Below the pieces are notes generated by a model that did not search any database, had not been told where the DNA came from, and was given only the letters and a program-made list of their open reading frames with translations. 64,000 nucleotides of DNA. It comes from a virus. The position numbers and the translations under genes are program-made. The stretch lies in the IMG/VR virus record IMGVR_UViG_3300027741_000056, positions 1 to 64,000 of that record; one strand, written 5' to 3'. Of the stretch, positions 6,263 through 57,500 are shown in pieces (positions within the stretch are counted from its first letter, which is position 1; each line of letters begins with the position of its first letter).

Positions 6263-6527
6263 GCTGACCACTTACTTGCTTTTGTGTGTGCAAATCCGTA
6301 TCCAGTTTGGTTAAGGCTTGCTCTAACTCTCTTGCTAATTTCCTTGCTTCGTTAAACGTCAATGACGTTATCAACTTGTCAAGGTGCGCGTGGTCTTGCC
6401 AGACATTTACTGTTATGTTAACAACACCCTCAACGTAACCGTCTGGCGTGAACATGGTGGCGGAAGTTACGTCAACCAACTTGGTGCGATCTGCTGCGCG
6501 TAGCATTTCTAATTTACGAATATTCAC
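6255..6527 (-). CDS. Hypothetical early protein
   Basis: 90 residues beginning NIRKLEMLRAADRTK. I chose GTG at 6527 because it overlaps the upstream stop (GTGA) and has GGAAG five nt upstream. A beta-rich middle (VNITVNVWQD) is followed by a long C-terminal helix. No Cys motif or membrane segment. Family not recognised. Confidence 0.6.
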   Translation of the reverse strand: MNIRKLEMLRAADRTKLVDVTSATMFTPDGYVEGVVNITVNVWQDHAHLDKLITSLTFNEARKLARELEQALTKLDTDLHTQKQVSGQHG

Positions 6528-31906: not shown

Positions 31907-32559
31907 TGACTATTTCGCAGTCTCGTTTTGGTAGCCAAGCGGAGGTTGGTCGTTCGCCTAATCGTAAGAATGCCAAGGATCAGCATCATTGGGGTGCTGC
32001 TGTTGGTTTAGGTGTTGCTGGTACTGGTTATGGTGCCACTCGCGCTGCGAGTGTATTGAGTAATAGTGCTGGCGCTTCTAAAGCTAAGGCTAATCAGTCT
32101 CGTGCTGGTATTCGTATTAGTCAGGGCGACGCTAATCTTGCTAGGAATCTTCAAGCAGTTGAGCAGGCTAAGTTGGCTAAGTTACGTGGTCGCAATAAAG
32201 GCCAAGCGATGTGGATTGTTGATGGTCAGGGTCGTAGGGTTAATGTTCCGGCTACTGCAGATAGTGCTTTTATGCATGGTGTTATTAATGATGTGGTTCG
32301 GGAAAGCAATAAGCATGCGCAGACTGCTAGCAGGCATGATTTGGCAACTAAAAAGTCTCGTGATGAGGCGCGTGCTCATGCTCAAAATTATGCTCGTATG
32401 AATCGTTACAGTAAGTTGGCTTCTCGTGGCGGAAAGATTGCTATTGGTACTGGCTTGCTGGGCGCGGCTGGTGCTTTGGCTCAAACTGAACATGCTCGTG
32501 GTACAGTTGGCTACAAGCGACCTACACGCGCACAATTAAGGGGACGTAATGTCAGATGA
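31906..32559 (+). CDS. Basic glycine-zipper protein
   Basis: 217 residues, rich in Ala, Arg and Lys, with zipper segments WGAAVGLGVAGTGYGATRA (~25-43) and GKIAIGTGLLGAAGALA (~183-199). Overlaps the previous stop by 1 bp and the portal start by 11 bp. Same style as 29879-31906 and 34374-35561. No enzymatic motif. Confidence 0.6.
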   Translation: MTISQSRFGSQAEVGRSPNRKNAKDQHHWGAAVGLGVAGTGYGATRAASVLSNSAGASKAKANQSRAGIRISQGDANLARNLQAVEQAKLAKLRGRNKGQAMWIVDGQGRRVNVPATADSAFMHGVINDVVRESNKHAQTASRHDLATKKSRDEARAHAQNYARMNRYSKLASRGGKIAIGTGLLGAAGALAQTEHARGTVGYKRPTRAQLRGRNVR

Positions 32560-34120
32560 TGTACGTTTGGCGGCTAGACAAACTGATGGCTTAAATGCCA
32601 CGCCTGCTGATATTCAGGCTTTAGAAGAATTAAAGAATGCTTCGCCGTTTCTGGAACTGGGTACTACTGGTCTTAAGCGTGCTGGTGGCTATATTGATGA
32701 ACAGTTTCTTCCGCAGTTGCGTGGGCGTAAGGCTGTTCAAGTCTTTAAGGAAATGGCTGAGAATGACCCTTTGGTTGGGTCTTTGTGGTTCACTATAGAT
32801 CGTTTGATTCGTAATGTTGAATGGCGTGTTGAGCCTGCCAGTAAGTCTAAAGAAGATACTGATAATGCAAAGCTTGTTGAAACTTGTATGGATGACATGT
32901 CTCATACTTGGGATGATTTTATTTCTGAGGTTTTGTCTTGTGTGATTTATGGCTGGTCTTGGCATGAGATTGTGTACAAGCGTCGTGTTGGTCCGTGGGA
33001 GCGCGATTCTTCTAAGCGCTCTAAGTACACTGATGGTTTGATTGGCTGGCGTAAGATGCCAATTCGCGCACAGGAAACTTTGTTGCGTTGGGCGTTTGAT
33101 GATACTGGTGATGTTTCTGCGATGATTCAGTTGGCTCCTCCTCGTTATGAAACTAAGGTTTTGCCTATTGAGCGTTCGTTACTGTTTCGTTATCGTCATC
33201 AAAAAGGTAATCCTGAGGGTATGTCTATGCTTCGTCAGGCTTATCGTCCTTGGTACATGAAGAAGCGCCTTGAAGAATATGAGGCTGTTGGTATTGAGCG
33301 TGACCTTGCTGGTTTGCCTGTTGTTAAGGTGCCGGCAGAGTTTTTGCGGGCTAAGCCTGGCTCTCAGCAGGCTCAAACTGTTGAGGCGTTTAAGCGTATG
33401 GTTAAGTCTGTGCGTCGTGATGAGCAAGAGGGCATTGTGTTTCCTATGGCTTATGATCAGGACACTAAGCAACCTTTGTATTCGTTTGAACTTATGGGCG
33501 GTGGCGGTGCTCGTGCTTTCAATACTGATGCAATTATTCAGCGTTATGAGCAGCGAATTTTGATGTCTGTTTTGGCTGATTTTATTATGGTTGGTCATGA
33601 GGGTGGTGGCTCTTACAGTTTGCATACTGATAAGACTGGTATTTTTCGTACTTCGCTTAACTCTATTGCTGGTTCTATTGCAGATACTTTGAACCGTTAT
33701 GCTATTCCTCGGTTGTTTTCTGTTAATGGTATGAAGCCTGCTGAGTTGCCTAAGATTGTGCCTGGTGATGTTGATAGTCCAGATATTGCGCAGTTGGCTC
33801 AGTTTATGTCCGCTATGTCTAGCACTGGTGTCACATGGTTCCCAGACCCAACTATGGAGAACTTTATTCGAGATGCTGCTCGTTTGCCTAAACTTAATGA
33901 AGAGGATGAAGATCGTCGTCGTCAAATGCAGATGCGTACGGAGGCTACGCAATACGCACAAGCTAACATTGCGTATGTTCAGGCTAAGCAACAGTTGGCT
34001 CAAACTTTGATGGGTCAGCAACAACAGCAAGCGCAGCCTGGTCAGCCTGGTCAACAGGATAGTCAACAGAATGCTAGTCAACAAGAAAGTCAACAACAAA
34101 ATCCTCAGCAGGGGCAGTAA
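32549..34120 (+). CDS. Portal protein
   Basis: 523 residues. DUF935/gp6-like portal features: DPLVGSLWFTIDRLIRNVEW (~73-92), SCVIYGWSWHEIVYK, then PIRAQETLLRWAF, LFRYRHQKGNPEG and a conserved C-terminal helix region; the last ~50 residues are a Gln-rich tail. Twelve copies would form the DNA channel at the unique vertex, docking the terminase and connector. Position after terminase is as expected. Confidence 0.85.
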   Translation: MSDDVRLAARQTDGLNATPADIQALEELKNASPFLELGTTGLKRAGGYIDEQFLPQLRGRKAVQVFKEMAENDPLVGSLWFTIDRLIRNVEWRVEPASKSKEDTDNAKLVETCMDDMSHTWDDFISEVLSCVIYGWSWHEIVYKRRVGPWERDSSKRSKYTDGLIGWRKMPIRAQETLLRWAFDDTGDVSAMIQLAPPRYETKVLPIERSLLFRYRHQKGNPEGMSMLRQAYRPWYMKKRLEEYEAVGIERDLAGLPVVKVPAEFLRAKPGSQQAQTVEAFKRMVKSVRRDEQEGIVFPMAYDQDTKQPLYSFELMGGGGARAFNTDAIIQRYEQRILMSVLADFIMVGHEGGGSYSLHTDKTGIFRTSLNSIAGSIADTLNRYAIPRLFSVNGMKPAELPKIVPGDVDSPDIAQLAQFMSAMSSTGVTWFPDPTMENFIRDAARLPKLNEEDEDRRRQMQMRTEATQYAQANIAYVQAKQQLAQTLMGQQQQQAQPGQPGQQDSQQNASQQESQQQNPQQGQ

Positions 34121-35572: not shown

Positions 35573-38500
35573 GTGTCGTTGCTTGATGCGGTTCGTAAGG
35601 CTGTAGAGGAAGACCCTATTGGCGGTTCGATTCTTATTGATGAAATCGTTTATTCGGTTTTGGCTGATGAGGCTGAGCAGGTTCGCCCTGCGGTTGAAAA
35701 GATGCTGTCTGTGTTTATGGCAGAGCGTGTTGGTGTTGCTAAGCGTGCGTTAGGTCGTGCATATGTTGAGACTATGGCTAATGGTGAGTATCCTGACCCT
35801 GAAGTTCAAAAGAATGCTGAATGGATTGCGGGCATCGAGCGTTTTATTGCTTCAGATATTTCTAAAGCTGATGATCGTACTTTTGATGAGCGTCTTCATC
35901 CTCGTGGCAGTGGTGGCCGCTTTAGTGTCAAAGCACCTCCTGCGGCTGAGGTAAAAGCAGGCGCATACGTTGGTTATGCCGCTGCGCAGCATAAGTCTAA
36001 GCATAGTGCGTCTACTCAAACGCACGTTATGCATGATGGTAAGAAAAACGTTTATGCTGAAGGTATTCATCCGGATACGCAAGAACTTGTTGACCAGCAT
36101 CAGTATCAGTGGGATGCAGCTAATCAGCAGGCTAATAGCATTATGGAAAGTTTTGGTCGTGATGCGGGAAAGATTAACCTTCGTATTACTGTTCAAAATA
36201 AGCATAATGACAAGTTGCGTGACATTGTTGTTCCTGGCTCTGAGGCTAAGGGTGGTCTACCGTCTGATAGCGCTTGGTCTATTAATGATGATTACAAGTC
36301 TATGAGTGTTGATGCGGCTAATTTGGATAACCCTACTGACCAAATTCTTATTGATAATAAGGTTAATGCTTATAATGTGATGGGTAATGCAGGCGGTCCA
36401 GCTTTGGCTGAATTGGGCACTATTGATTCTTCTCGTTACACAAAACTTGGTCAGACTATGGATCGCGGTTACATGCGTTCTCAAGACAAGTCTAAGATGG
36501 GCACTTTCTTTGACCGGTTGCATGCAGGTGGTGGCATTCTTCGTGAAACTCCTGGTATGGAAAAGTATGGGCGTTTTGCGCAGTTTGTTGGTCAGACTGG
36601 TCCTGAGGCTGAAAAGTATTTGGGGCCTTATGCTCAGCAGGCTGCGTATCGTTACCGCGGTACTGAGAAAGAACCTGATTTAGATTTGGTTAGTCAGTTT
36701 AATAGTGTCACTATGAATGCTGTTAATGCTGTGGCTACTAACCCTAATAATACTTTGGCTATGAATCATCTTGAAAATGAAGTTTCAGGTCAGGGTGAAA
36801 AAGACGTTGTTGCTACGTCGGCTGTTTATGAAATGAATCATTTGAAGCGCACTCGTGGTGGCGAGTATACGCCAGATGAGTTGGCACTAAATGTTCGTGC
36901 TGATGTGGCGGCTCGTCATTTGTTGAATACGTTACCGTCGGACCCTTTTGTTGCTGATTTGTCTCGCGCAGCGGGTAATGTGTTGCCGTCGCAGGGTGTC
37001 ATTATTGATGCTGATGGCGATGTTGTTAGTCAGTCTGTTGGTTTTTCTGATGACCATTATTTGCCTTTTGATTTGAAGAATCTTAAGTCTTTGCGTGGCG
37101 GCCAGTATGTGCGTACTCGTCAGCAGGGTGGTTTGACTGCGGAGGATGTTTATGCGTCTATTCGTACGGGTGCGCGTATGGCTACTGTTGTTTCCAGCAG
37201 TGGTGTGTTTTCTTTAGAGTTTGACCCTAATTTCCGTGGCGCTCGCGCTAACTCTGATAAGGCTCGACAGATGGTTGACCGCTATGTCAGTATTCTTGAT
37301 GCGGTTCAAAACTCTAATTTGTACACTCAAGATATTGATCAGCGTGAAAAAGAACGTCTTCGCGGTATGGCTAACTCTATGGGCTCTACGCCAAAAGAAC
37401 GCAAAGATTTGTTTGAGCATTATGTTGACCAAGCTCGTACTGCTGGTGCGACGCTTAATGAGCAAGATTTGCAGATGCTTCATGAGGATGCCATTAAGCA
37501 GGTGGATTCTGAGGGCTTTAAGTACAAGAATGAGCGTTACAATCGTCGTGTTAATGAAGTGTTTGATGAGTTGGCTGAGCAGAAGCGTGCAGCCCGTGTT
37601 TCTCGTCTTAATCTAAATTCAAAAGGTTATGACGCTGCTTTGCAAACTTTGCAACAGCAGTTCCCTTATTTTATTCGTTCTGTTAAGTATCAGCCTTTGA
37701 CTGCTGATAAGAATGGTCAGCGTGGATTCTTGCAGTCGCTTGGTCAGTCTGGTGCTGCGGGAGCGCGTCAAAAGTTGGGCGCTAAGGATCAGGGTTATGT
37801 TAATGCTGGTGCCGGTGATTTACGGCCTAATGTTGGTTACAAAGAGCCTAAGGAAGAAAAGACTGAGGCTGGTGCAGCGCCTAAGGAAGAAAAAGTTAGT
37901 GCAACACCTTCTGCTGGTGCAACACCTGAGACTAAAGCTAAGCCTGTTCCTAAGGCTAAGTTTTTGGGTGATTTGGAAGCATTTACTGCTGTCGCGGATA
38001 AAGAAGCATCTAAAGATGTTGAAGAGTTGGCGTCTATGTTCCGCAGTCATGACCCAACAATTCAAGGTATCCCAGGCACTACAGAGTGGTCTGTAGCAAA
38101 GGGTGCTTTTGAAACTACTGGTGATAAACGTTTGGCTGCTAAGTATCTTTTGGCTGCTTCAAATAATGGAGAGCACGATGCTTTAGTTAAGGCTTACAAA
38201 TCAGACCCTGCTGTTGTAGGCGCGGTTTTGTCTGATGAAAAAGCAGTGAAAGAGGCTTTGGCTGCTTTGTATGGTTCTGCTTGGAAGGGCGAATCTGAAG
38301 CCAGTTTTGGTATGTCGCTTGAGGATTTGCAAAACAATGTGCATTATGTGGCAGATAAAATTAACGATTCTGCTTCGTTAAAGTCTCCTTACGCACCTGC
38401 GGCTCATGGTCCTGCTGGTCTATTTTATTCAGGCGATAAGCCTCAGGAGATGGCTGAGTTGGCGTCTGTTAATGACAAGGCTGGTCTTAAAGCGATGATT

Positions 38501-39046
38501 AATGCTAATCCTGCGGTTGCCGAGATTGCGTCAGACCTTGATGGTTTGGATAACACTCAAATGAGTAAATTGGTCGCTGAGCGCGTTGCTGTGCTTAAAA
38601 AAGCTAAGGATGCTCGTATTGGTGAGTTGTTTAGTTCTGAGGCCGCTATTGATCCGGATAAGGCTGCTGACAAGGCTTTGTCTAAAGCAGGCATTACTCC
38701 TGATGAATGGAAAGATGCGATGGGGTCTAGCACTAGTTCTCATTTTGGTACATTCCAACAGTTCTTGCCTGAAACTATTGACCAGCGTGCGCAAGCTACA
38801 CAAGCTGCTTGGGGTGCTATCTATACGTCTCAGTTGATGGATAAGTTAGAGGAGTTGAAAGCATCTTCTGCTGAGGCAGGTGGTGTTGAGGCCCCAAAAG
38901 CGGAGCCCCCAGCGGGGGAGTTAGCGAAAAGCCAGCAGGGGTACTCGTCCCGACAGGTGCTCATCGCGAAGAATCATTGGCTGGCCCAAGAGGTGGCAGT
39001 GAGGCGCGAGGCGGGTCTACCACTGGTGCCGATACGGCAAAAGTAG
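35573..39046 (+). CDS. Giant head-module protein (0-frame product)
   Basis: 1157 residues from GTG 35573 (AGGGG upstream). A helical N-terminal domain (1-100) ends in DERLHPRGSGGRF (~105-117), a motif repeated in the 818-residue protein. A long middle domain (~140-720) has no recognised fold; an Ala/Pro/Glu linker (~750-800) precedes a helical C-terminal region (LGDLEAFTAVADKEASKDVE...). Near the end a slippery site and hairpin (38893-38918) would divert ribosomes to an AAA+ ATPase in the -1 frame, so two products are expected. Confidence 0.7.
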   Translation: MSLLDAVRKAVEEDPIGGSILIDEIVYSVLADEAEQVRPAVEKMLSVFMAERVGVAKRALGRAYVETMANGEYPDPEVQKNAEWIAGIERFIASDISKADDRTFDERLHPRGSGGRFSVKAPPAAEVKAGAYVGYAAAQHKSKHSASTQTHVMHDGKKNVYAEGIHPDTQELVDQHQYQWDAANQQANSIMESFGRDAGKINLRITVQNKHNDKLRDIVVPGSEAKGGLPSDSAWSINDDYKSMSVDAANLDNPTDQILIDNKVNAYNVMGNAGGPALAELGTIDSSRYTKLGQTMDRGYMRSQDKSKMGTFFDRLHAGGGILRETPGMEKYGRFAQFVGQTGPEAEKYLGPYAQQAAYRYRGTEKEPDLDLVSQFNSVTMNAVNAVATNPNNTLAMNHLENEVSGQGEKDVVATSAVYEMNHLKRTRGGEYTPDELALNVRADVAARHLLNTLPSDPFVADLSRAAGNVLPSQGVIIDADGDVVSQSVGFSDDHYLPFDLKNLKSLRGGQYVRTRQQGGLTAEDVYASIRTGARMATVVSSSGVFSLEFDPNFRGARANSDKARQMVDRYVSILDAVQNSNLYTQDIDQREKERLRGMANSMGSTPKERKDLFEHYVDQARTAGATLNEQDLQMLHEDAIKQVDSEGFKYKNERYNRRVNEVFDELAEQKRAARVSRLNLNSKGYDAALQTLQQQFPYFIRSVKYQPLTADKNGQRGFLQSLGQSGAAGARQKLGAKDQGYVNAGAGDLRPNVGYKEPKEEKTEAGAAPKEEKVSATPSAGATPETKAKPVPKAKFLGDLEAFTAVADKEASKDVEELASMFRSHDPTIQGIPGTTEWSVAKGAFETTGDKRLAAKYLLAASNNGEHDALVKAYKSDPAVVGAVLSDEKAVKEALAALYGSAWKGESEASFGMSLEDLQNNVHYVADKINDSASLKSPYAPAAHGPAGLFYSGDKPQEMAELASVNDKAGLKAMINANPAVAEIASDLDGLDNTQMSKLVAERVAVLKKAKDARIGELFSSEAAIDPDKAADKALSKAGITPDEWKDAMGSSTSSHFGTFQQFLPETIDQRAQATQAAWGAIYTSQLMDKLEELKASSAEAGGVEAPKAEPPAGELAKSQQGYSSRQVLIAKNHWLAQEVAVRREAGLPLVPIRQK
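38893..38918 (+). promoter_or_regulatory. Programmed -1 frameshift signal (CCCAAAA plus hairpin)
   Basis: The heptamer is read C-CCA-AAA in the 0 frame, the ideal X-XXY-YYZ pattern. Six nt later CCCCC-AGC-GGGGG (38906-38918) forms a GC hairpin. The -1 frame is closed by TGA at 38887-38889, opens immediately after it and leads without a stop into the AAA+ ATPase, so the site is placed exactly where a shift can work. Confidence 0.75.
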
Positions 39047-39846
39047 AGCGTATTAGTTCTGACCTTCATTCAATGATTGGTATGAATGAAGTGGCTAATG
39101 AAGTGGATAGTCTTGTTGCTACTGGTTTGATGAATCAGAAGCGCGAAGAAGCTGGCTTGCCTGTGTCTAATAACGCTAAGCATTTGGTGTTTGTTGGTGA
39201 GCCTGGTACTGGTAAAACGACTGTGGCTAAAAAGTTGGCAAAGTTGTATAACGCGGCTGGTTTGTTGCCAAAGGATACTGTTGTTGAGACTGACCGTAGT
39301 AAATTGGTTGGTAAGTATGGCAATAACATTTCTGATCGTGTTCGTAAAGAGTTTGAGTCTGCTCGTGGCGGTGTTTTGTTTGTTGATGAGGCTTACACTC
39401 TTGCGGATGATGCTTTTGGTAAAGAAGCTGCTACTCAGTTGATGAAACTTATGGAGGAACATAAGGATGATACTGTGGTTATTGTTGCTGGTTATCCGGG
39501 TGAGATGGGTAAGTTTATGGCGCTTAATCCTGGTATGAAGTCTCGTTTTTCTAAGACTGTTAATTTTCCTAACTATTCTCATAAGGAGCAGGTACAGATT
39601 CTTGAGCAACGTATGGCTAGGCATAAGGATGTGGTTGATAGTCCACAGACTGCTAAGGCTTTGAATGAGGCTGTTCGTGTGGCATCTGCTGAAGGTGGTA
39701 ATGGCCGTGCTATGGAGCGTTTGCATGCCAGACTTGAAGAGGCAAGAAATGTGCGTTTGAGTCGTAAGCCTGATTTGTCTACTGAAGATTTGTCTGTGTT
39801 TACTGTTGATGATGTAAACTCGGCTATCGGGGCTTCTAGCTCTTAG
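38899..39846 (+). CDS. AAA+ ATPase (CbbX/EccA type), expressed as a -1 frameshift fusion
   Basis: The -1 frame adds 315 residues to the first 1109 of the giant protein, giving ~1424. The ATPase region has LHSMIGMNEV, Walker A GEPGTGKTT (start at nt ~39197), GKYG (pore-loop region), Walker B VLFVDEAYTL, sensor VIVAGY and an arginine-rich GMKSRF. These fit the CbbX/SpoVK/EccA group, which remodel proteins. Read alone, the first possible start is TTG at 38977 with no ribosome site, so fusion is favoured. It might unfold or load a head protein; inference. Confidence 0.75.
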   Translation, partial: SGAPSGGVSEKPAGVLVPTGAHREESLAGPRGGSEARGGSTTGADTAKVERISSDLHSMIGMNEVANEVDSLVATGLMNQKREEAGLPVSNNAKHLVFVGEPGTGKTTVAKKLAKLYNAAGLLPKDTVVETDRSKLVGKYGNNISDRVRKEFESARGGVLFVDEAYTLADDAFGKEAATQLMKLMEEHKDDTVVIVAGYPGEMGKFMALNPGMKSRFSKTVNFPNYSHKEQVQILEQRMARHKDVVDSPQTAKALNEAVRVASAEGGNGRAMERLHARLEEARNVRLSRKPDLSTEDLSVFTVDDVNSAIGASSS

Positions 39847-39864: not shown

Positions 39865-42321
39865 GTGAATCGTTGGTGGGCCAATCCGGAGTTATCTGCA
39901 GAGATTTTAAAGTCTGTTGATGATTCGGATGTTGTCAATGGTGTTGGTGTGGCTGTTTTGGGTTATCACGGGCTTGCTATGGGTGTTTTAAAGCCTTTAG
40001 TTACTCAGACACTAGTTGATACTCATACTGTGCGTAAGGCGCTTTTACAGGTTGATTTACAGCCTATTGCTAAGGCTTTGTCTGAGGCAACTAAACCTGT
40101 TATGGGTGATGCTTCTGAACGTTATGGCAAATTGTTGGCTGATGCTATTCATGAGAAAGCCGTGGCTTCTACTGAGCGTTTATTGCATACGTGGACAAAT
40201 AACGGAATGCCTTGGCCTAACGCTATTGAACGTGCTGCTGAGGTGCATGGTGTTCCTGTTGAGCGTCTGGGGCGTTATGCGTCTGTTATGAAAGCGGCTA
40301 CTGTTAATCCGCATATTCGTGCTGATTATGCTGATCGCGAGTTGATGACTTATGCATCTGTTATGGGTAGTCGTGAGTCTTTGATTTCTTCTGAGTTAAT
40401 TTCTAAGCAAAAGTCTGAGTTTGAAGAGTTGCACCCTAGGGCTTCTGATGGTCGTTTTACTGATAAGAGTGAAGTTCTTGATTTGCGTGCCAAGTTGAAT
40501 AAGATGAAAAAGTTTAAGGCTGCTCGTGAGGTTGGTTCGCAAGTCAAGCGTGGTACTTTTGATTTTGCTAGGTCTAAGACCGCTGGTGAGTCTCGAACTA
40601 AGATTGCGCCTCGTACTAAAGTGGAGCCTAAAAAAATGGAGGTGCAAACTACTGGCGATACTTTTAAAACTAGTTTTAGGCATTCTTTTCGCAAGCCTGA
40701 TTTTAAACTAAACGACCCTAGTGGCGATTGCCCTACGGTTCCAACGTTTTTTGTTAATGGTGACGTGTATATTCCTGTTAATGCTTCTTTACTTAATCAA
40801 ATTAAAAAGCAGAGTAATCTTTTTACTGCGTGGGATGTTAAGAATCATGATGGTAATGGTGAACTTGAGGCTTTTGGCAAAGATGGCTTTAGTGACTATG
40901 TTGACATACGTGGTTTAAAAAATATTGTTAATGAAGGCACTGTTCTTCTAAAATGTAGTTACACGCCTGTTCACAAGAATCGTGCTGATGTTTTGACTAA
41001 TTCTAGCGGTAATCCGCATACTGATGATTTTAAGTGGAGTACTGTTGCACCTAAAGCTACATTTAGACTTGTTACTGGTGGCCCAGAGCCTCGCAGTTTA
41101 ATGTCTTTGATTAATGCCGGCAAGCATAAGTTGCACAGTTATTCTGACGATTTTGAAGACGATTTTGTACCTAATACTGATGATTTTAAAGTTTATGAAA
41201 TCGCTTTGGTTAATGATGATCCTGATTTGTGGGAAGAAGATATTAGTAAAAATTTGTCAGATGAGGAGCGTGAGGTTTTTAACGTAGAACATCCTCGTGC
41301 TGTTAATGGTCAGTTTACTGATAAGAATGTTACGTCTCTTAAGGCTAAGTTGGATAAGCGCAATAAGATGGCTCGCCAGCGTGAGATTGGGCAAAAAGCT
41401 AAGCAGGGTAATTTTGATTTTAAAGAGTCGCGTCAGAATCAAGCTGATGTTCGTCAGAAGGTTTCTGCTTTGCGCCAAGAGCCAGTTTTTGCTGAAACTA
41501 AATTTAAGCAAAGTTTTAAAACTAATTTTAAAATGTTTTATAGGGATGAAACACATGACCCTATTAAGTTTGGTGACAGTTGGGCTGTGATTGTTCCTTA
41601 CGGTATGTCTCCTATGCCTGATTTGTGGCCATGGTTAAATGAAAAAGCATTTAGCGAGCGTTCGTATAAAAAAGAAACTCACCCTAAAGGTCCTACAGAA
41701 ATAGTTTCAGGAAATCTTGAGGATGATAGAACTGCTTTAAAAGTGTTTAAAAATACTCATGGCAGCAGTTTGTTAATACCTAGAGAACAACGCACGTCTC
41801 CCGGTAGGGCTTTGTCACCAGTTGTTGGAAATATTATTAATCATGCTGATCGCAGAGAGCCTGAAAAAATTATTAAAGTTACAGGTACTGGTGGTAATAG
41901 CGAAGATACTGGTGAGTGGTCTTTTGAAACACCTGAGCAGGCGCTTGAAGCGGCTAATAATAGTAAGCAGCGTTTTAGTCTAAGTAATTCATTTTTAATG
42001 TGGCAACCGGAAGCTTTGATTAATGAAAACGGCGAATATGATGCTATTTTGGCTGGGTACAACCCAGAAGAGAAATATCAACTTATTGTAGGTAGTTATA
42101 GTGACCTTTGGGAAGCGCATTATATTGCTAACGAAAATCCTGAAGAGTTTGCTGAAAGAGTAAAAATTGTGCCTTCTGATAAGGACGTAAGTAATTTGCA
42201 GGAGTTTTTATCACTTAGTGATAGCGATGAGATTATTGATGAAGTTAATTCGGCTATTCGCGATAAGGGTACTAACCCGCCAATAGAATTGTATGAAATT
42301 AAAGTTATGCCACCTTGGTAG
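39865..42321 (+). CDS. 818-residue head-module protein with two related halves
   Basis: Starts at GTG 39865. N-terminal helical domain (1-175), then two repeats beginning with HPRASDGRFTDK (~188) and HPRAVNGQFTDK (~475), each followed by a basic helix (L-x-AKL-x-K...REIG...FDF) and a beta-rich domain of ~250 residues ending in ...YEI. The same HPR-GRF motif occurs once in the giant protein. Position between the ATPase and the protease suggests a minor head or internal protein. The repeat indicates an internal duplication. Confidence 0.6.
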   Translation: MNRWWANPELSAEILKSVDDSDVVNGVGVAVLGYHGLAMGVLKPLVTQTLVDTHTVRKALLQVDLQPIAKALSEATKPVMGDASERYGKLLADAIHEKAVASTERLLHTWTNNGMPWPNAIERAAEVHGVPVERLGRYASVMKAATVNPHIRADYADRELMTYASVMGSRESLISSELISKQKSEFEELHPRASDGRFTDKSEVLDLRAKLNKMKKFKAAREVGSQVKRGTFDFARSKTAGESRTKIAPRTKVEPKKMEVQTTGDTFKTSFRHSFRKPDFKLNDPSGDCPTVPTFFVNGDVYIPVNASLLNQIKKQSNLFTAWDVKNHDGNGELEAFGKDGFSDYVDIRGLKNIVNEGTVLLKCSYTPVHKNRADVLTNSSGNPHTDDFKWSTVAPKATFRLVTGGPEPRSLMSLINAGKHKLHSYSDDFEDDFVPNTDDFKVYEIALVNDDPDLWEEDISKNLSDEEREVFNVEHPRAVNGQFTDKNVTSLKAKLDKRNKMARQREIGQKAKQGNFDFKESRQNQADVRQKVSALRQEPVFAETKFKQSFKTNFKMFYRDETHDPIKFGDSWAVIVPYGMSPMPDLWPWLNEKAFSERSYKKETHPKGPTEIVSGNLEDDRTALKVFKNTHGSSLLIPREQRTSPGRALSPVVGNIINHADRREPEKIIKVTGTGGNSEDTGEWSFETPEQALEAANNSKQRFSLSNSFLMWQPEALINENGEYDAILAGYNPEEKYQLIVGSYSDLWEAHYIANENPEEFAERVKIVPSDKDVSNLQEFLSLSDSDEIIDEVNSAIRDKGTNPPIELYEIKVMPPW

Positions 42322-46741: not shown

Positions 46742-47749
46742 ATGCCAAGTCCATCCCAGTCCGATCTGCATGTTAATGTGCCGTTGACCAATGTGTCGAT
46801 TGCCTACATGCAGTCTGCAGATGCATACATTGCTGACAAGGTTTTCCCTAAGGTTCCTGTCAAGAAGCAATCTGACCTTTATTGGAAGTACAGCAAGAGC
46901 GATTGGCGTCGTACTGACGTTGCTCGTCGTGCTCCTTCTACAGAGTCACCTGGCGTTGGTTGGAATACAACCACCGACCAGTACTTTGCTCATGTCTACG
47001 CTGTTCACAAGGACATTGATGACCAGCTACGCGCTAATGCTGATAGTAACTTTGTGCTTGACCGCGATAGCACCGAGTTCATCACTAATCAGCTTCTTTT
47101 GAAGCGTGACGTTGACTGGGCTGCTAAGTACTTCACTACTGGCGTTTGGGACAATGACCTTGTTGTTGGTGCTTCTGCTAACACTAATGGTTTCACTGCT
47201 CCGGCTGCTAAGTGGTCTGATGCTGGTTCTGACCCTATTGGTGACGTTGCTCGTGCGGTTATTGCTTTCCGTAAGAACACTGGTTTTGCGCCTAACATCA
47301 TGGTTATTGGTGCGGATGTTATGACTGCTCTCAAGCAACATCCAGACATCATTGACCGTATCAAGTACACTCAGCGCGGTATCGTGACTGAAGACTTGAT
47401 TGCTACTATGTTTGGTGTTAACGAGTTGTACACGTCGTACGCTTCACAGGCTACTGGTCCACAGATTCCAGATGCTAAGACTCAGGATGCTGCTGCTTCA
47501 TACAGTTTCATTAATGATTCTAAGTCTGCTCTGTTGTGCTACGCTCCTTCAGCACCTAGCTTGATGACTCCATCTGCTGGTTACACGTTCACTTGGAACG
47601 GCTACCTCGGTGGTAACTCTGAAGGTATTAAGATTAAGCGTTTCCGTATGGAGCATATTGCTTCTGATCGTATCGAGGCAGAAATGACTTACGATATGAA
47701 GACGGTTGCTACTGACCTTGGTGCTTTCTTCACGGGCGTGGTTGCATAA
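46742..47749 (+). CDS. Major capsid protein
   Basis: 335 residues, HK97-fold gpE-like family. Recognisable parts: ADKVFPKVPVKKQSD (~30-44), a long central alpha/beta region, APNIMVIGADVMTALKQHPD (~181-200), IKYTQRG, and a C-terminal strand region IKIKRFRMEHIASDRIEAEM. No cleaved delta domain is present; scaffold is supplied separately by 44769. AGGAG ribosome site upstream gives a strong start. Confidence 0.88.
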   Translation: MPSPSQSDLHVNVPLTNVSIAYMQSADAYIADKVFPKVPVKKQSDLYWKYSKSDWRRTDVARRAPSTESPGVGWNTTTDQYFAHVYAVHKDIDDQLRANADSNFVLDRDSTEFITNQLLLKRDVDWAAKYFTTGVWDNDLVVGASANTNGFTAPAAKWSDAGSDPIGDVARAVIAFRKNTGFAPNIMVIGADVMTALKQHPDIIDRIKYTQRGIVTEDLIATMFGVNELYTSYASQATGPQIPDAKTQDAAASYSFINDSKSALLCYAPSAPSLMTPSAGYTFTWNGYLGGNSEGIKIKRFRMEHIASDRIEAEMTYDMKTVATDLGAFFTGVVA

Positions 47750-53784: not shown

Positions 53785-54171
53785 ATGGCACGTAAGATTG
53801 CTACTCTTGAAGATTTATTGAAGAAGCCTGCTCGCACTAAAGAAATTATTATCAATGTTCCTACGGGCAAGTCGTCTACTACTGACTTTGTTGTCACTAT
53901 TAAGGCGATTGGTTCGAAGGCTTATGATGATCTGTTGGCTGCTCATCCCCCAACTAATGAGCAGAAGAAGGAAGGCACTTCGTACAATATTGATACGTTT
54001 GCGCCTGCTCTTATTTCTGCTTGTTCTGTAACTCCGGCATTGTCTGAGGAGCAGGCTACACAGATTTGGACTTCTAATGAGTGGTCTCGCGGTGAGTTGA
54101 CTGAGTTGTTTATTGGGTGTGTTGAGGTTAATTCTAAAGGCCTTGATGTCCCTTTCAACGAAGTCGGCTGA
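53785..54171 (+). CDS. Tail assembly chaperone, short form (gpG-like)
   Basis: 128 residues from ATG 53785 (AAGGAAA upstream). Starts MARKIATLEDLLKKPART and has IIINVPTGKSSTTDFVVTIKAIG, typical of gpG-type chaperones in actinophages. A slippery site near the end leads to a longer gpGT form. The chaperone coats the tape measure during tail assembly. Confidence 0.8.
   Translation: MARKIATLEDLLKKPARTKEIIINVPTGKSSTTDFVVTIKAIGSKAYDDLLAAHPPTNEQKKEGTSYNIDTFAPALISACSVTPALSEEQATQIWTSNEWSRGELTELFIGCVEVNSKGLDVPFNEVG
54150..54156 (+). promoter_or_regulatory. Programmed -1 frameshift slippery site CCCTTTC
   Basis: Read C-CCT-TTC in frame; after a -1 slip both tRNAs re-pair (CCC, TTT). The -1 frame is closed by TGA at 54144-54146 and open from 54147, so the shift must occur here. 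Confidence 0.8.
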
Positions 54172-54514: not shown

Positions 54515-57500
54515 GTGTTTAATGAAGATGTAACAGTTGATTTTAATGCCAACGTAGGCCCTTACACGTCTTCTCTTGGTCAAGCTTTGGCTATGACCAA
54601 TCAATTTAGTGCGGCTAATGATATCGCGATTGCTAAATTGGGCAATCTTAATAAGATTTCTTTATCTCTTATTCAGTCTACGGCTGCTTTTACTGGTGCT
54701 AATAAGGTTGCTGTTGCGCAGGCTGCGGCTTATGAGCAAAAACTTTCTTCACTTAATGCTACTGCCAAGATTGCTGGTAAACAGTTTGAGGGTCTTGGCT
54801 CTGTAACTATGAAGTTTGCTCGCCAGTTTCCTGTGGGTATGGATAAGGCGATTGAGACTACTAAGACTTTAGCAACGTCTGGCGTTACTACAACTAAACA
54901 GATTCAAAAGTTGGGCCAGGAGTTTATTAAACTACAGGCTGCTTCTGGCGAGTGGGGCTCTGGCATGCAGCAGGACATGCTTCAGGTTACTCGTTCTTTT
55001 GGTAACTCTACTAACATGATTAAGGGTTTTAGCGATTCCCTTGTTTCTGTTACAGCAAAGTATGGCGCTTCAGCTTCGTCTGTTTTGGCTTTTTCTAAAG
55101 CTATTGCGCCTATTGCTTCTGTAGTTGGTATTAGCCAAGCTTCTGTGTTTGGTTTGTCTACGGCGATGTCTCGTCTTGGTGAAGACGGTTATCGTTCTGC
55201 TAACGCGTTTAACAAGGTTCTTTTGGATATGAACCGGTCTATTCGTACTGGTTCTCCTGAAATTCGTGAGTATGCCAAAGTTTTGAACATGTCTACGGAC
55301 TCTTTGGGTAACTTGTTTAAGAGTGATCCTACTGAAATGATTTTGCGTTTTACTGACGCTATCAATAAGCAAGGTTCGCAGGCTGTTACGACTCTTGATA
55401 ATTTGGGTCTTGATGGTGTTAACACGTTTAAGTCTTTGCAGGCTTTGTCTAAGTCTGGTGACTTGCGTCAAATTGTTGGCGATGCTACTAGTTCTTACAA
55501 TAATGGGTCTGCTAATGCAGGTGCTACTTCGGCATTAGGCGGGGTTAATGACCAATTGTCTAAAATGCAAGAAACTATGTCGCAAACTACTGCTGAGGCA
55601 GGTAAACCATTTCTGTCGTTTTTAAATAGCGTTTTGGGTGTATCAAACGGTATGGCTGAAGGCGTTCATGGTTTGGTTACTGCTCTTTCGGGGCTTGGAC
55701 CATTGCTTCCAGTTTTGACTAGTTTGTGGACAATTCTTAAAGGTATTGCTGTCATTCAACTTGGTCGTCTTGGCTTAAGTATGTTTACAAATTCTAATTT
55801 TGGGCAACAATTTTTTGCTGGACGTACCCAAGCTATTAACGGGCAGGCTTTTGGACCTAATGCTTTGTCTACTGCTGGCGCTCGCGTTGGTCAAGCATTT
55901 GGCACGCTTTTTGGTGGTAAGGATCCAGTTACAGGTGCAAGAGGCGGACCGATTGGGATGCTTAAGGGTGGCGCTCAGTGGATTGCGCAGGCTTATACCA
56001 ACGCTAATGCCAACCTTTACAACGCTGACCCAAGTAACTCTCGTATGCGTACCGATGCCGGTATGGCTGCTTCTAATAATAAATTTATGCTTAAAAATGG
56101 TGGAACAATAATGTCTGCTGAAGAGCAGGCTATTCGTTATGGTAGAGATTCAAATAATGTAATTCGTCCTGCAACGATGGCTACTATGCCTAATGCAATT
56201 GCTAGTCAACTTGCTATGCAAATGGGTGCGTATGGTTCGCCTAATGGTGAGTATGGTGCGTCGCAACGTTTGGCTGTACAAAAAGCAATGTTTAATGATA
56301 TGCGTCAAACTTCAGGTACTTTAGGGTTTTTTAAAGATGCTGTTAAGTATGCAGGCAAAAATGTCGGTGAATTTGGTAAGTCTATGGGCACTAGAGTTAA
56401 GGATTGGGTTAAACAAGGCGCTATTACTGGTGTTTCTGAAGAAGGTACAGCTATTCGTGGTGGTCAGCGTTTTGGTGCTTTAGGCGGCGCTTTAAGCGGA
56501 ATGATGGGAATGCTAGGATCTACTATCGGAATTATGGCTGTCATGGCTGCTGCGGGTTTTGTATCTAAAGCAATTAAGCAAAATAATGAGCGCCAAACTG
56601 GTACTGGTTTTAGTGATGCTTATTCTGTGTACAATGATTTTGCTACTAAAGCAGGTTTGCCAACGCAGTCTTACACTAATACAAATGCTATGTATGATCC
56701 TATGGCTTGGGCGAGTTATTATGCAAAAAGTGCTAAGTCGCCTAGGCAAGCAACTAAAATGTCAACGTCGGAAATTTTAAATGCTTTAAAAACTGATTAC
56801 AAAGCTAGCTATACTTTTAATACTCAAAAAGAGTTATTAACTGGTACTGGTTTGGGTATTCAAGCAAGAATGATGGCTGGTCCTAATGCTAGTCCTGAAG
56901 TTATTAGCCGTTTGACGCAAGATGCGCTTGCTGGCACAAAAAATGCTACTTTGGCGCGTGCCGCTGGTAATTACGCTACTGGTAAATCAACTTACGGTAG
57001 TTCTAATAGTGGTCTTTATACCGACGCTTTTCAATCGGCTGCCGACACAATGACTTATACTGATGCTGTGGCTCACCGTCAAAGTGCCTACGGCGGAACT
57101 ATGGCACAGTTGATTCGACAAGAGGCGACTTCTAATATTAATAATACTGCCCTAAAATTTGGAACCGGTACTATCCGTATGGCTACGCTTTCCGAGGCAG
57201 TAAAAATTCTTAGGGGCACTGCTGGCATTTCAGGCTCAAAGGGCTATAGAGATGTGCAGAACATGAATGCAGCTCGTATTGTTTCGGAATTGCTTGGTGT
57301 AAAGTATGACCTTAATTCTTGGAATTTACTCAAACAACAACGTGTTAACTCAGCTGTGTCTCAGTCTACAAGTGACACTGATCCGCTAAGTGTATTTTTT
57401 GCTAATACTTCTGACAAAAAATCACTCCCAAGTAATTCTTTTTACCAATATTACAAAACTTTGATTAAGGGTGGCGGTTACGGCTGGGAGACGCCATATT

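Follow-up and report, generated by a model that had tools for sequence, protein, structure and literature searches.

A dnaX-type frameshift cassette predicted to join an AAA+ ATPase to a giant head-module protein in a little-known phage group

The giant gene and its setting

The window, meaning the whole 64,000-nucleotide stretch of DNA analysed here, belongs to a virus record of 68,611 bases. It carries a giant gene (Table 1) with a portal gene upstream (32549-34120) and a major head gene downstream (46742-47749), the product of the latter matching phrog_1005 at 7.4e-88. Wherever one of the 33 loci searched bears the ATPase and contains a portal, the order portal, giant gene, ATPase is kept. 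The family matches of a 237-aa gene downstream are mixed (methyltransferase and head maturation protease). The 818-aa neighbour at 39865-42321, which matches no PHROG family, contains two HPR-type motifs, ELHPRASDGRF and VEHPRAVNGQF, and the giant protein has a similar one, RLHPRGSGGRF.

The giant protein matches no Pfam or PHROG family at E <= 0.001, and its weak library matches to models named minor capsid protein have E values of 0.0045 and 0.023. A tblastn search of giant proteins against 50,697 phage records returned no match at E <= 1e-5, and a scan of genome contigs found no relative. AlphaFold models of the whole protein (pLDDT 78.6) and of its core (pLDDT 88.3, pTM 0.84) matched nothing in the PDB at E <= 0.001; in a viral structure library, the single match at that threshold was A0A6J5RLS4, an uncharacterised protein of an uncultured Caudovirales phage with 37% identity to the giant protein. 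Fold look-alikes of the whole model, with Z up to 6.9, involve helical stretches. Those of the core include many deaminase- or JAMM-like chains at Z 3.8-4.7, the best row, at 5.1, being of a different kind. Both sets lie below the trusted level, and no function was assigned from them. Gene order suggests that the giant protein is a head protein, and this assignment is positional, since the family and fold searches are uninformative.

A frameshift cassette at the end of the giant gene

Shortly before its stop codon, the giant gene contains a Shine-Dalgarno (SD)-like stretch, a slippery heptamer, a short spacer and a candidate stimulatory hairpin (Table 1). A sequence-only reading of this DNA had proposed the in-phase C-CCA-AAA heptamer with its 6-nt spacer and hairpin, and all three were located at 38893-38918. 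It had also described a -1 frame that is shut by a TGA and then open (the TGA lies at 38887-38889), a GC-rich dual-coded stretch, and products of about 1157 and 1424 residues, and the lengths computed from the sequence for the two predicted products agree. GC content reaches 63.1% across 38890-39046, compared with 45.5% for the preceding part of the giant gene and 43.2% for the part of the ATPase that follows; the GC-richest 157-nt window starting outside 38700-39060 reaches 53.5%. Two further features, the SD-like element and the conserved 0-frame tail described below, were absent from that reading.

Table 1. Features of the giant gene, the frameshift cassette and a possible second site in the window
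Feature	Position	Strand	Details
Giant gene, 0 frame	35573..39046	+	GTG start, stop TAG 39044-39046, 1157 aa; predicted motor-less product
Most conserved block of giant protein	36983..37306	+	query for finding relatives; inside predicted core
SD-like stimulator	38872..38882	+	TGAGG-C-AGGTG, one bulged base; -12.8 kcal/mol to anti-SD
-1 frame ORF	38890..39846	+	predicted to be entered at 38899 after slip: ~50 aa linker, then CbbX/EccA-type AAA+ ATPase
Slippery heptamer	38893..38899	+	C_CCA_AAA, in phase: codons CCA 38894-38896, AAA 38897-38899
Spacer, heptamer to hairpin	38900-38905	+	6 nt
0-frame tail of short product	38900..39046	+	dual-coded, 48 aa; terminal motif common to most -1-class relatives
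Candidate stimulatory hairpin	38906..38918	+	CCCCC 38906-38910, AGC, GGGGG 38914-38918; -7.8 kcal/mol
Possible second -1 site	54150..54156	+	CCCTTTC, in phase, ORF two before tape-measure gene; separate from ATPase system

Within the giant gene, the hairpin is equalled by 2.7% of 365 control sites, and the SD-like stretch pairs with the 16S rRNA end more strongly than every control site. It also pairs better than any of the 31 gene starts examined, whose strongest value is -10.2 kcal/mol, and its last paired base lies 10 nt upstream of the heptamer. The gene holds six in-phase heptamers of the XXXYYYZ type, of which only the one at 38893 takes the -1 frame beyond the gene's stop. Among 34 plus-strand ORFs taken to be genes, three heptamers (38893, 54150 and 60824) extend the -1 frame by over 30 nt beyond the stop. 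Taken together, the SD-like site, slippery heptamer and hairpin form a dnaX-type layout. We put at roughly nine in ten the probability that this is a programmed -1 ribosomal frameshift cassette of the dnaX type, through which one phage gene would yield two proteins; its support is close to the strongest that sequence comparison can give.

Conservation in relatives with the -1 layout

Searching viral contigs with the conserved block of the giant protein gave 102 matching stretches, of which the best 80 were kept; the 85 loci analysed include several repeats of the same contigs. An ATPase is present in 26 of the 85, lying in the -1 frame in 25, where it overlaps the giant ORF by 109-529 nt, and fused in one (L024). 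The other 59 loci have no ATPase seen, and 17 of them end before the giant gene does. After omission of six repeats, 19 of the 25 -1-frame loci were inspected. All 19 carry CCCAAAA in phase within the overlap, as do L133, L151 and L135, which makes 22 of 22 with the window included, or about 17 distinct loci once close pairs are considered (L010/L033, L039/L135, L044/L045, L049/L053 and L052/L054; L135 is nearly identical to L039 at the site). Identity of the giant protein to that of the window falls as low as 30.6% (L054, in a comparison without L133 and L151). Given a proline-lysine pair and the codon use of each gene, the chance of C-CCA-AAA is below 0.05 at each of the 22 sites; in L047, none of the 51 lysine codons upstream of the site is AAA.

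This record leaves almost no weight for the idea that the locus is a broken in-frame fusion gene or an assembly error with a coincidental heptamer. Short runs are indeed error-prone, and one relative, L129, is a plain in-frame fusion. Against this, all 22 loci, which come from many assemblies, have an identical frame relation and heptamer, two other contigs (L029 and L030) have the same DNA at the site, and the 0-frame tail is conserved.

The accompanying signals are conserved with more variation. A compact hairpin ranks in the top 5% of its own gene's control sites at 19 of 25 sites, by a criterion set post hoc, after the sites had been seen; the exceptions are L034, L041 (0.056), L043, L151, L055 and L129. 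Stem sequences differ widely between loci. A cruder measure, folding energy over 45 nt, places just 10 of 22 sites among the top 5% for their gene. The SD-like element is in the top 5% at 22 of 25 sites, missing that level at L052, L054 and L127 and reaching it at L129 (0.017), which has no visible cassette. Protein constraint may contribute to this element, as the stretch also codes a Gly-Gly pair in many members. Combined p values of about 1e-15 for the hairpin (21 rows) and about 3e-22 for the SD-like element (20 rows) are too small, because related rows were treated as independent.

Both elements bear on a further explanation, in which RNA polymerase slips at the C4A4 run and the fusion arises from the altered transcript. 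There is a homopolymer-like run at the site, yet runs of four are short for transcriptional slippage, and an SD-like element and a hairpin are signals for ribosomes; we regard this route as very improbable. Transcriptional slippage is reported for Thermus dnaX in PMC5009743.

One locus, L055 (11758-12345), has the heptamer in phase, and its -1 frame encodes a 195-aa non-ATPase stretch that matches no PHROG family; its hairpin is not significant. This -1 frame is possibly a swapped module.

The ATPase reading frame and its start

The best solved-structure matches of the ATPase are EccA1 (2.5e-38) and CbbX (1.3e-35). Walker A and B motifs are present, and AAA_lid_6 (PF17866) scores 21.6 bits against a cut-off of 24.3. 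The EccA1 and CbbX matches confirm the CbbX/EccA-type assignment made in the sequence-only reading. Its statement that the ATPase has no ATG or GTG start or ribosome site of its own is in line with the sequence: the first ATG, GTG or TTG in the -1 frame is TTG 38977, with no SD pairing (-1.0 kcal/mol), and the first ATG is 39073 (+0.7 kcal/mol). That reading had named, as the case that would count against it, relatives lacking the heptamer while keeping a good ATPase start. Beyond the unbroken presence of the heptamer, a conserved and well-placed ATPase start was found in none of the 19 -1-layout loci scanned, in which the P-loop follows the heptamer by 93-122 codons. The ATPase is apparently produced only as a fusion to the giant phage protein, and gene callers may give it a false start.

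A separate ATPase could in principle arise by termination and reinitiation, with ribosomes stopping at TAG 39044-39046 and restarting at ATG 39073 without an SD sequence. The ATG is 27 nt beyond the 0-frame stop in both the window and L010, and an ATG stands 38-44 codons before the P-loop in 16 of the 19 loci scanned. Absence of an SD sequence is weak evidence by itself, because pairing over the 31 gene starts from the ORF list ranges from +1.9 to -10.2 kcal/mol and five of these starts lie above -2. However, ATG 39073 falls in HSMIGM, a conserved stretch within the ATPase domain. An ATG is missing from that position in L041, L044 and L045, and of the 16 loci that have one, only L151 shows an SD-like tetramer before it. 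Reinitiation would also leave unexplained the conserved heptamer, SD-like site and hairpin, as well as their occurrence in the fused lineage described below. We consider it very improbable.

The tail of the unshifted product

Read on in the 0 frame, the unshifted product has a tail after the shift site, which varies from 31 to 69 residues across loci. In most of the 19 tails aligned, it ends in a motif of the form R-V-x-V-L, D/H-P-L-S, G-L-P-L/F-V, which is weak in L050 and L041. Over the same dual-coded DNA, the -1 frame resembles a loose linker. This difference between a conserved 0-frame tail and a loose -1 linker suggests that, in the -1 class, the short product serves a separate function.

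A fused lineage with reversed polarity

The giant protein and the ATPase share one reading frame in L024, L127, L128 and L132. These four of the five fused relatives retain the heptamer and hairpin at the junction, the hairpin of L024 being GCCCCC-GATCA-GGGGGC. Upstream of the site, L024 uses CCA for none of 36 prolines and AAA for none of 32 lysines. A stop in the -1 frame comes at the second codon after the slip in L024, L128 and L132 and at the fifth in L127, so a shift here would delete the motor. Forms with and without the motor therefore appear, from sequence comparison, to be made by opposite routes in the two lineages, and the reversed polarity of the second points to selection for both the motor-bearing and the motor-less form. 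The conserved 0-frame tail is absent from this class, and the 396-aa and 818-aa neighbours of the giant gene were not detected in it.

L129, a sister of the fused members, has a fused ATPase and no cassette at the junction, which indicates that a motor-less form is not universal. It does have an in-phase CCCAAAA at 6468, some 850 nt upstream of the fused ATPase, with an SD-like site but no hairpin; this distant heptamer was judged to be chance or a relic.

A tree of the giant core places L127, L128, L132 and L129 apart from most -1-class members, among members with no ATPase seen; the long branches of L133 and L151 are of unsure position, and L024 was too short and was left out. In the ATPase tree, a branch with support 100/99 separates 21 giant-linked rows from 18 other phage rows (17 of them different), with many inner forks weak. 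Both trees fit, without proving, a single origin followed by later loss and a switch of polarity. The giant protein itself is retained in the ATPase-less relatives, and an ATPase elsewhere in the genome was found in none of the eight such records searched whole, some of which may be fragments. The basic role of the giant protein thus seems independent of the motor.

Proposed mechanism and comparison with known systems

Read from the cassette, its conservation, the missing conserved ATPase start and the reversed polarity, all visible in the DNA, the mechanism would run as follows. Ribosomes translating the giant gene would encounter the SD-like element, the slippery heptamer and the hairpin. 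Those staying in frame would make the 1157-aa protein with its short conserved tail, and a fraction slipping back one base would make a 1424-aa protein bearing the AAA+ ATPase on a linker at its C-terminus; slippage in vivo, and its efficiency, we infer from these features. The long and short forms may then co-assemble in the head or prohead, such that only some subunits bear a motor, which might remodel or thread a protein while the head is assembled or the genome delivered.

A more tentative proposal, to which we give somewhat less than even odds, is that frameshifting fixes the ratio between subunits with and without a motor in a single mixed assembly, of the head or associated with the portal, where a tethered AAA+ ring would remodel or thread proteins in the prohead or during delivery, and that this ratio is itself selected. 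On this view, both lineages would maintain one mixed state through opposite polarities, which would make the ratio the selected trait. The sequence-only reading had likewise envisaged a fixed ratio, perhaps one motor per vertex or per head. Polarity reversal is unusually direct evidence that both products matter, and the locus lends itself to testing what a virus gains by equipping just a part of its copies of a structural-module protein with a motor.

The nearest parallel is bacterial dnaX (tau/gamma), which also combines a slippery heptamer with a stem-loop and yields two products with a common N-terminus, one of them extended C-terminally; dnaX likewise has an SD-like element upstream of the slippery site. 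Unlike dnaX, the present gene is a phage gene, its heptamer is C_CCA_AAA rather than A_AAA_AAG, the optional part is an AAA+ motor attached to an unrelated giant protein, and the short form ends, in the -1 class, in a separate conserved tail. The polarity of dnaX seems to be reversed in a few bacteria, according to PMC5009743.

Among phages, T7 10B, the A2 major head protein and the lambda-type tail chaperones share with this locus a frameshift in a late structural module that gives a minor extended product. The site at 38893 differs in lying outside the major capsid gene and away from the tape-measure gene, and in adding an ATPase. A tail assembly chaperone frameshift (G/GT) was rejected for it, as the site lies between the portal and major head genes and the tape-measure gene starts only at 54515; an extension of the major capsid was rejected as well, since the 0-frame product is not the major capsid protein. 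CbbX and EccA proteins share the sequence match and Walker motifs with the ATPase, which differs in apparently occurring only as a fusion. In Mycobacterium phage Adler, a 633-aa gene includes a broadly similar ATPase, and no giant protein was found in the 24.6-kb stretch of it that was searched. As PMC10885494 and PMC5009743 indicate, the programmed frameshifts known in phages belong mostly to tail chaperones, with a small number in capsid genes. The titles and abstract openings listed in literature searches, subscription journals and preprints excepted, gave no description of an AAA+ motor fused by frameshift to a giant head-module protein. In this little-known group of bacterial viruses, the partner that frameshifting would give to the AAA+ motor is a giant, uncharacterised head-module protein.

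A possible second site and further observations

Tail chaperones are expected just before the tape-measure gene. At 54150, the -1 frame is open to 54512, which is 341 nt beyond the stop. The two ORFs there match only PHROGs of unknown function, so that reading them as tail chaperones is positional; the site is possibly a tail-chaperone frameshift and could serve as an internal control.

A 79,093-base record (L122/L123) has a 127-base overlap at its ends and is possibly a complete genome from the reversed-polarity lineage. The 135,953-base contig 3300027749_000047 contains the locus twice (L001/L003), at 100% and 84% identity to the window and about 67.5 kb apart; this spacing is close to one genome length, and the contig would appear to be two related genomes joined, in nature or by assembly. 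Contig 3300028392_000043 also contains both copies.
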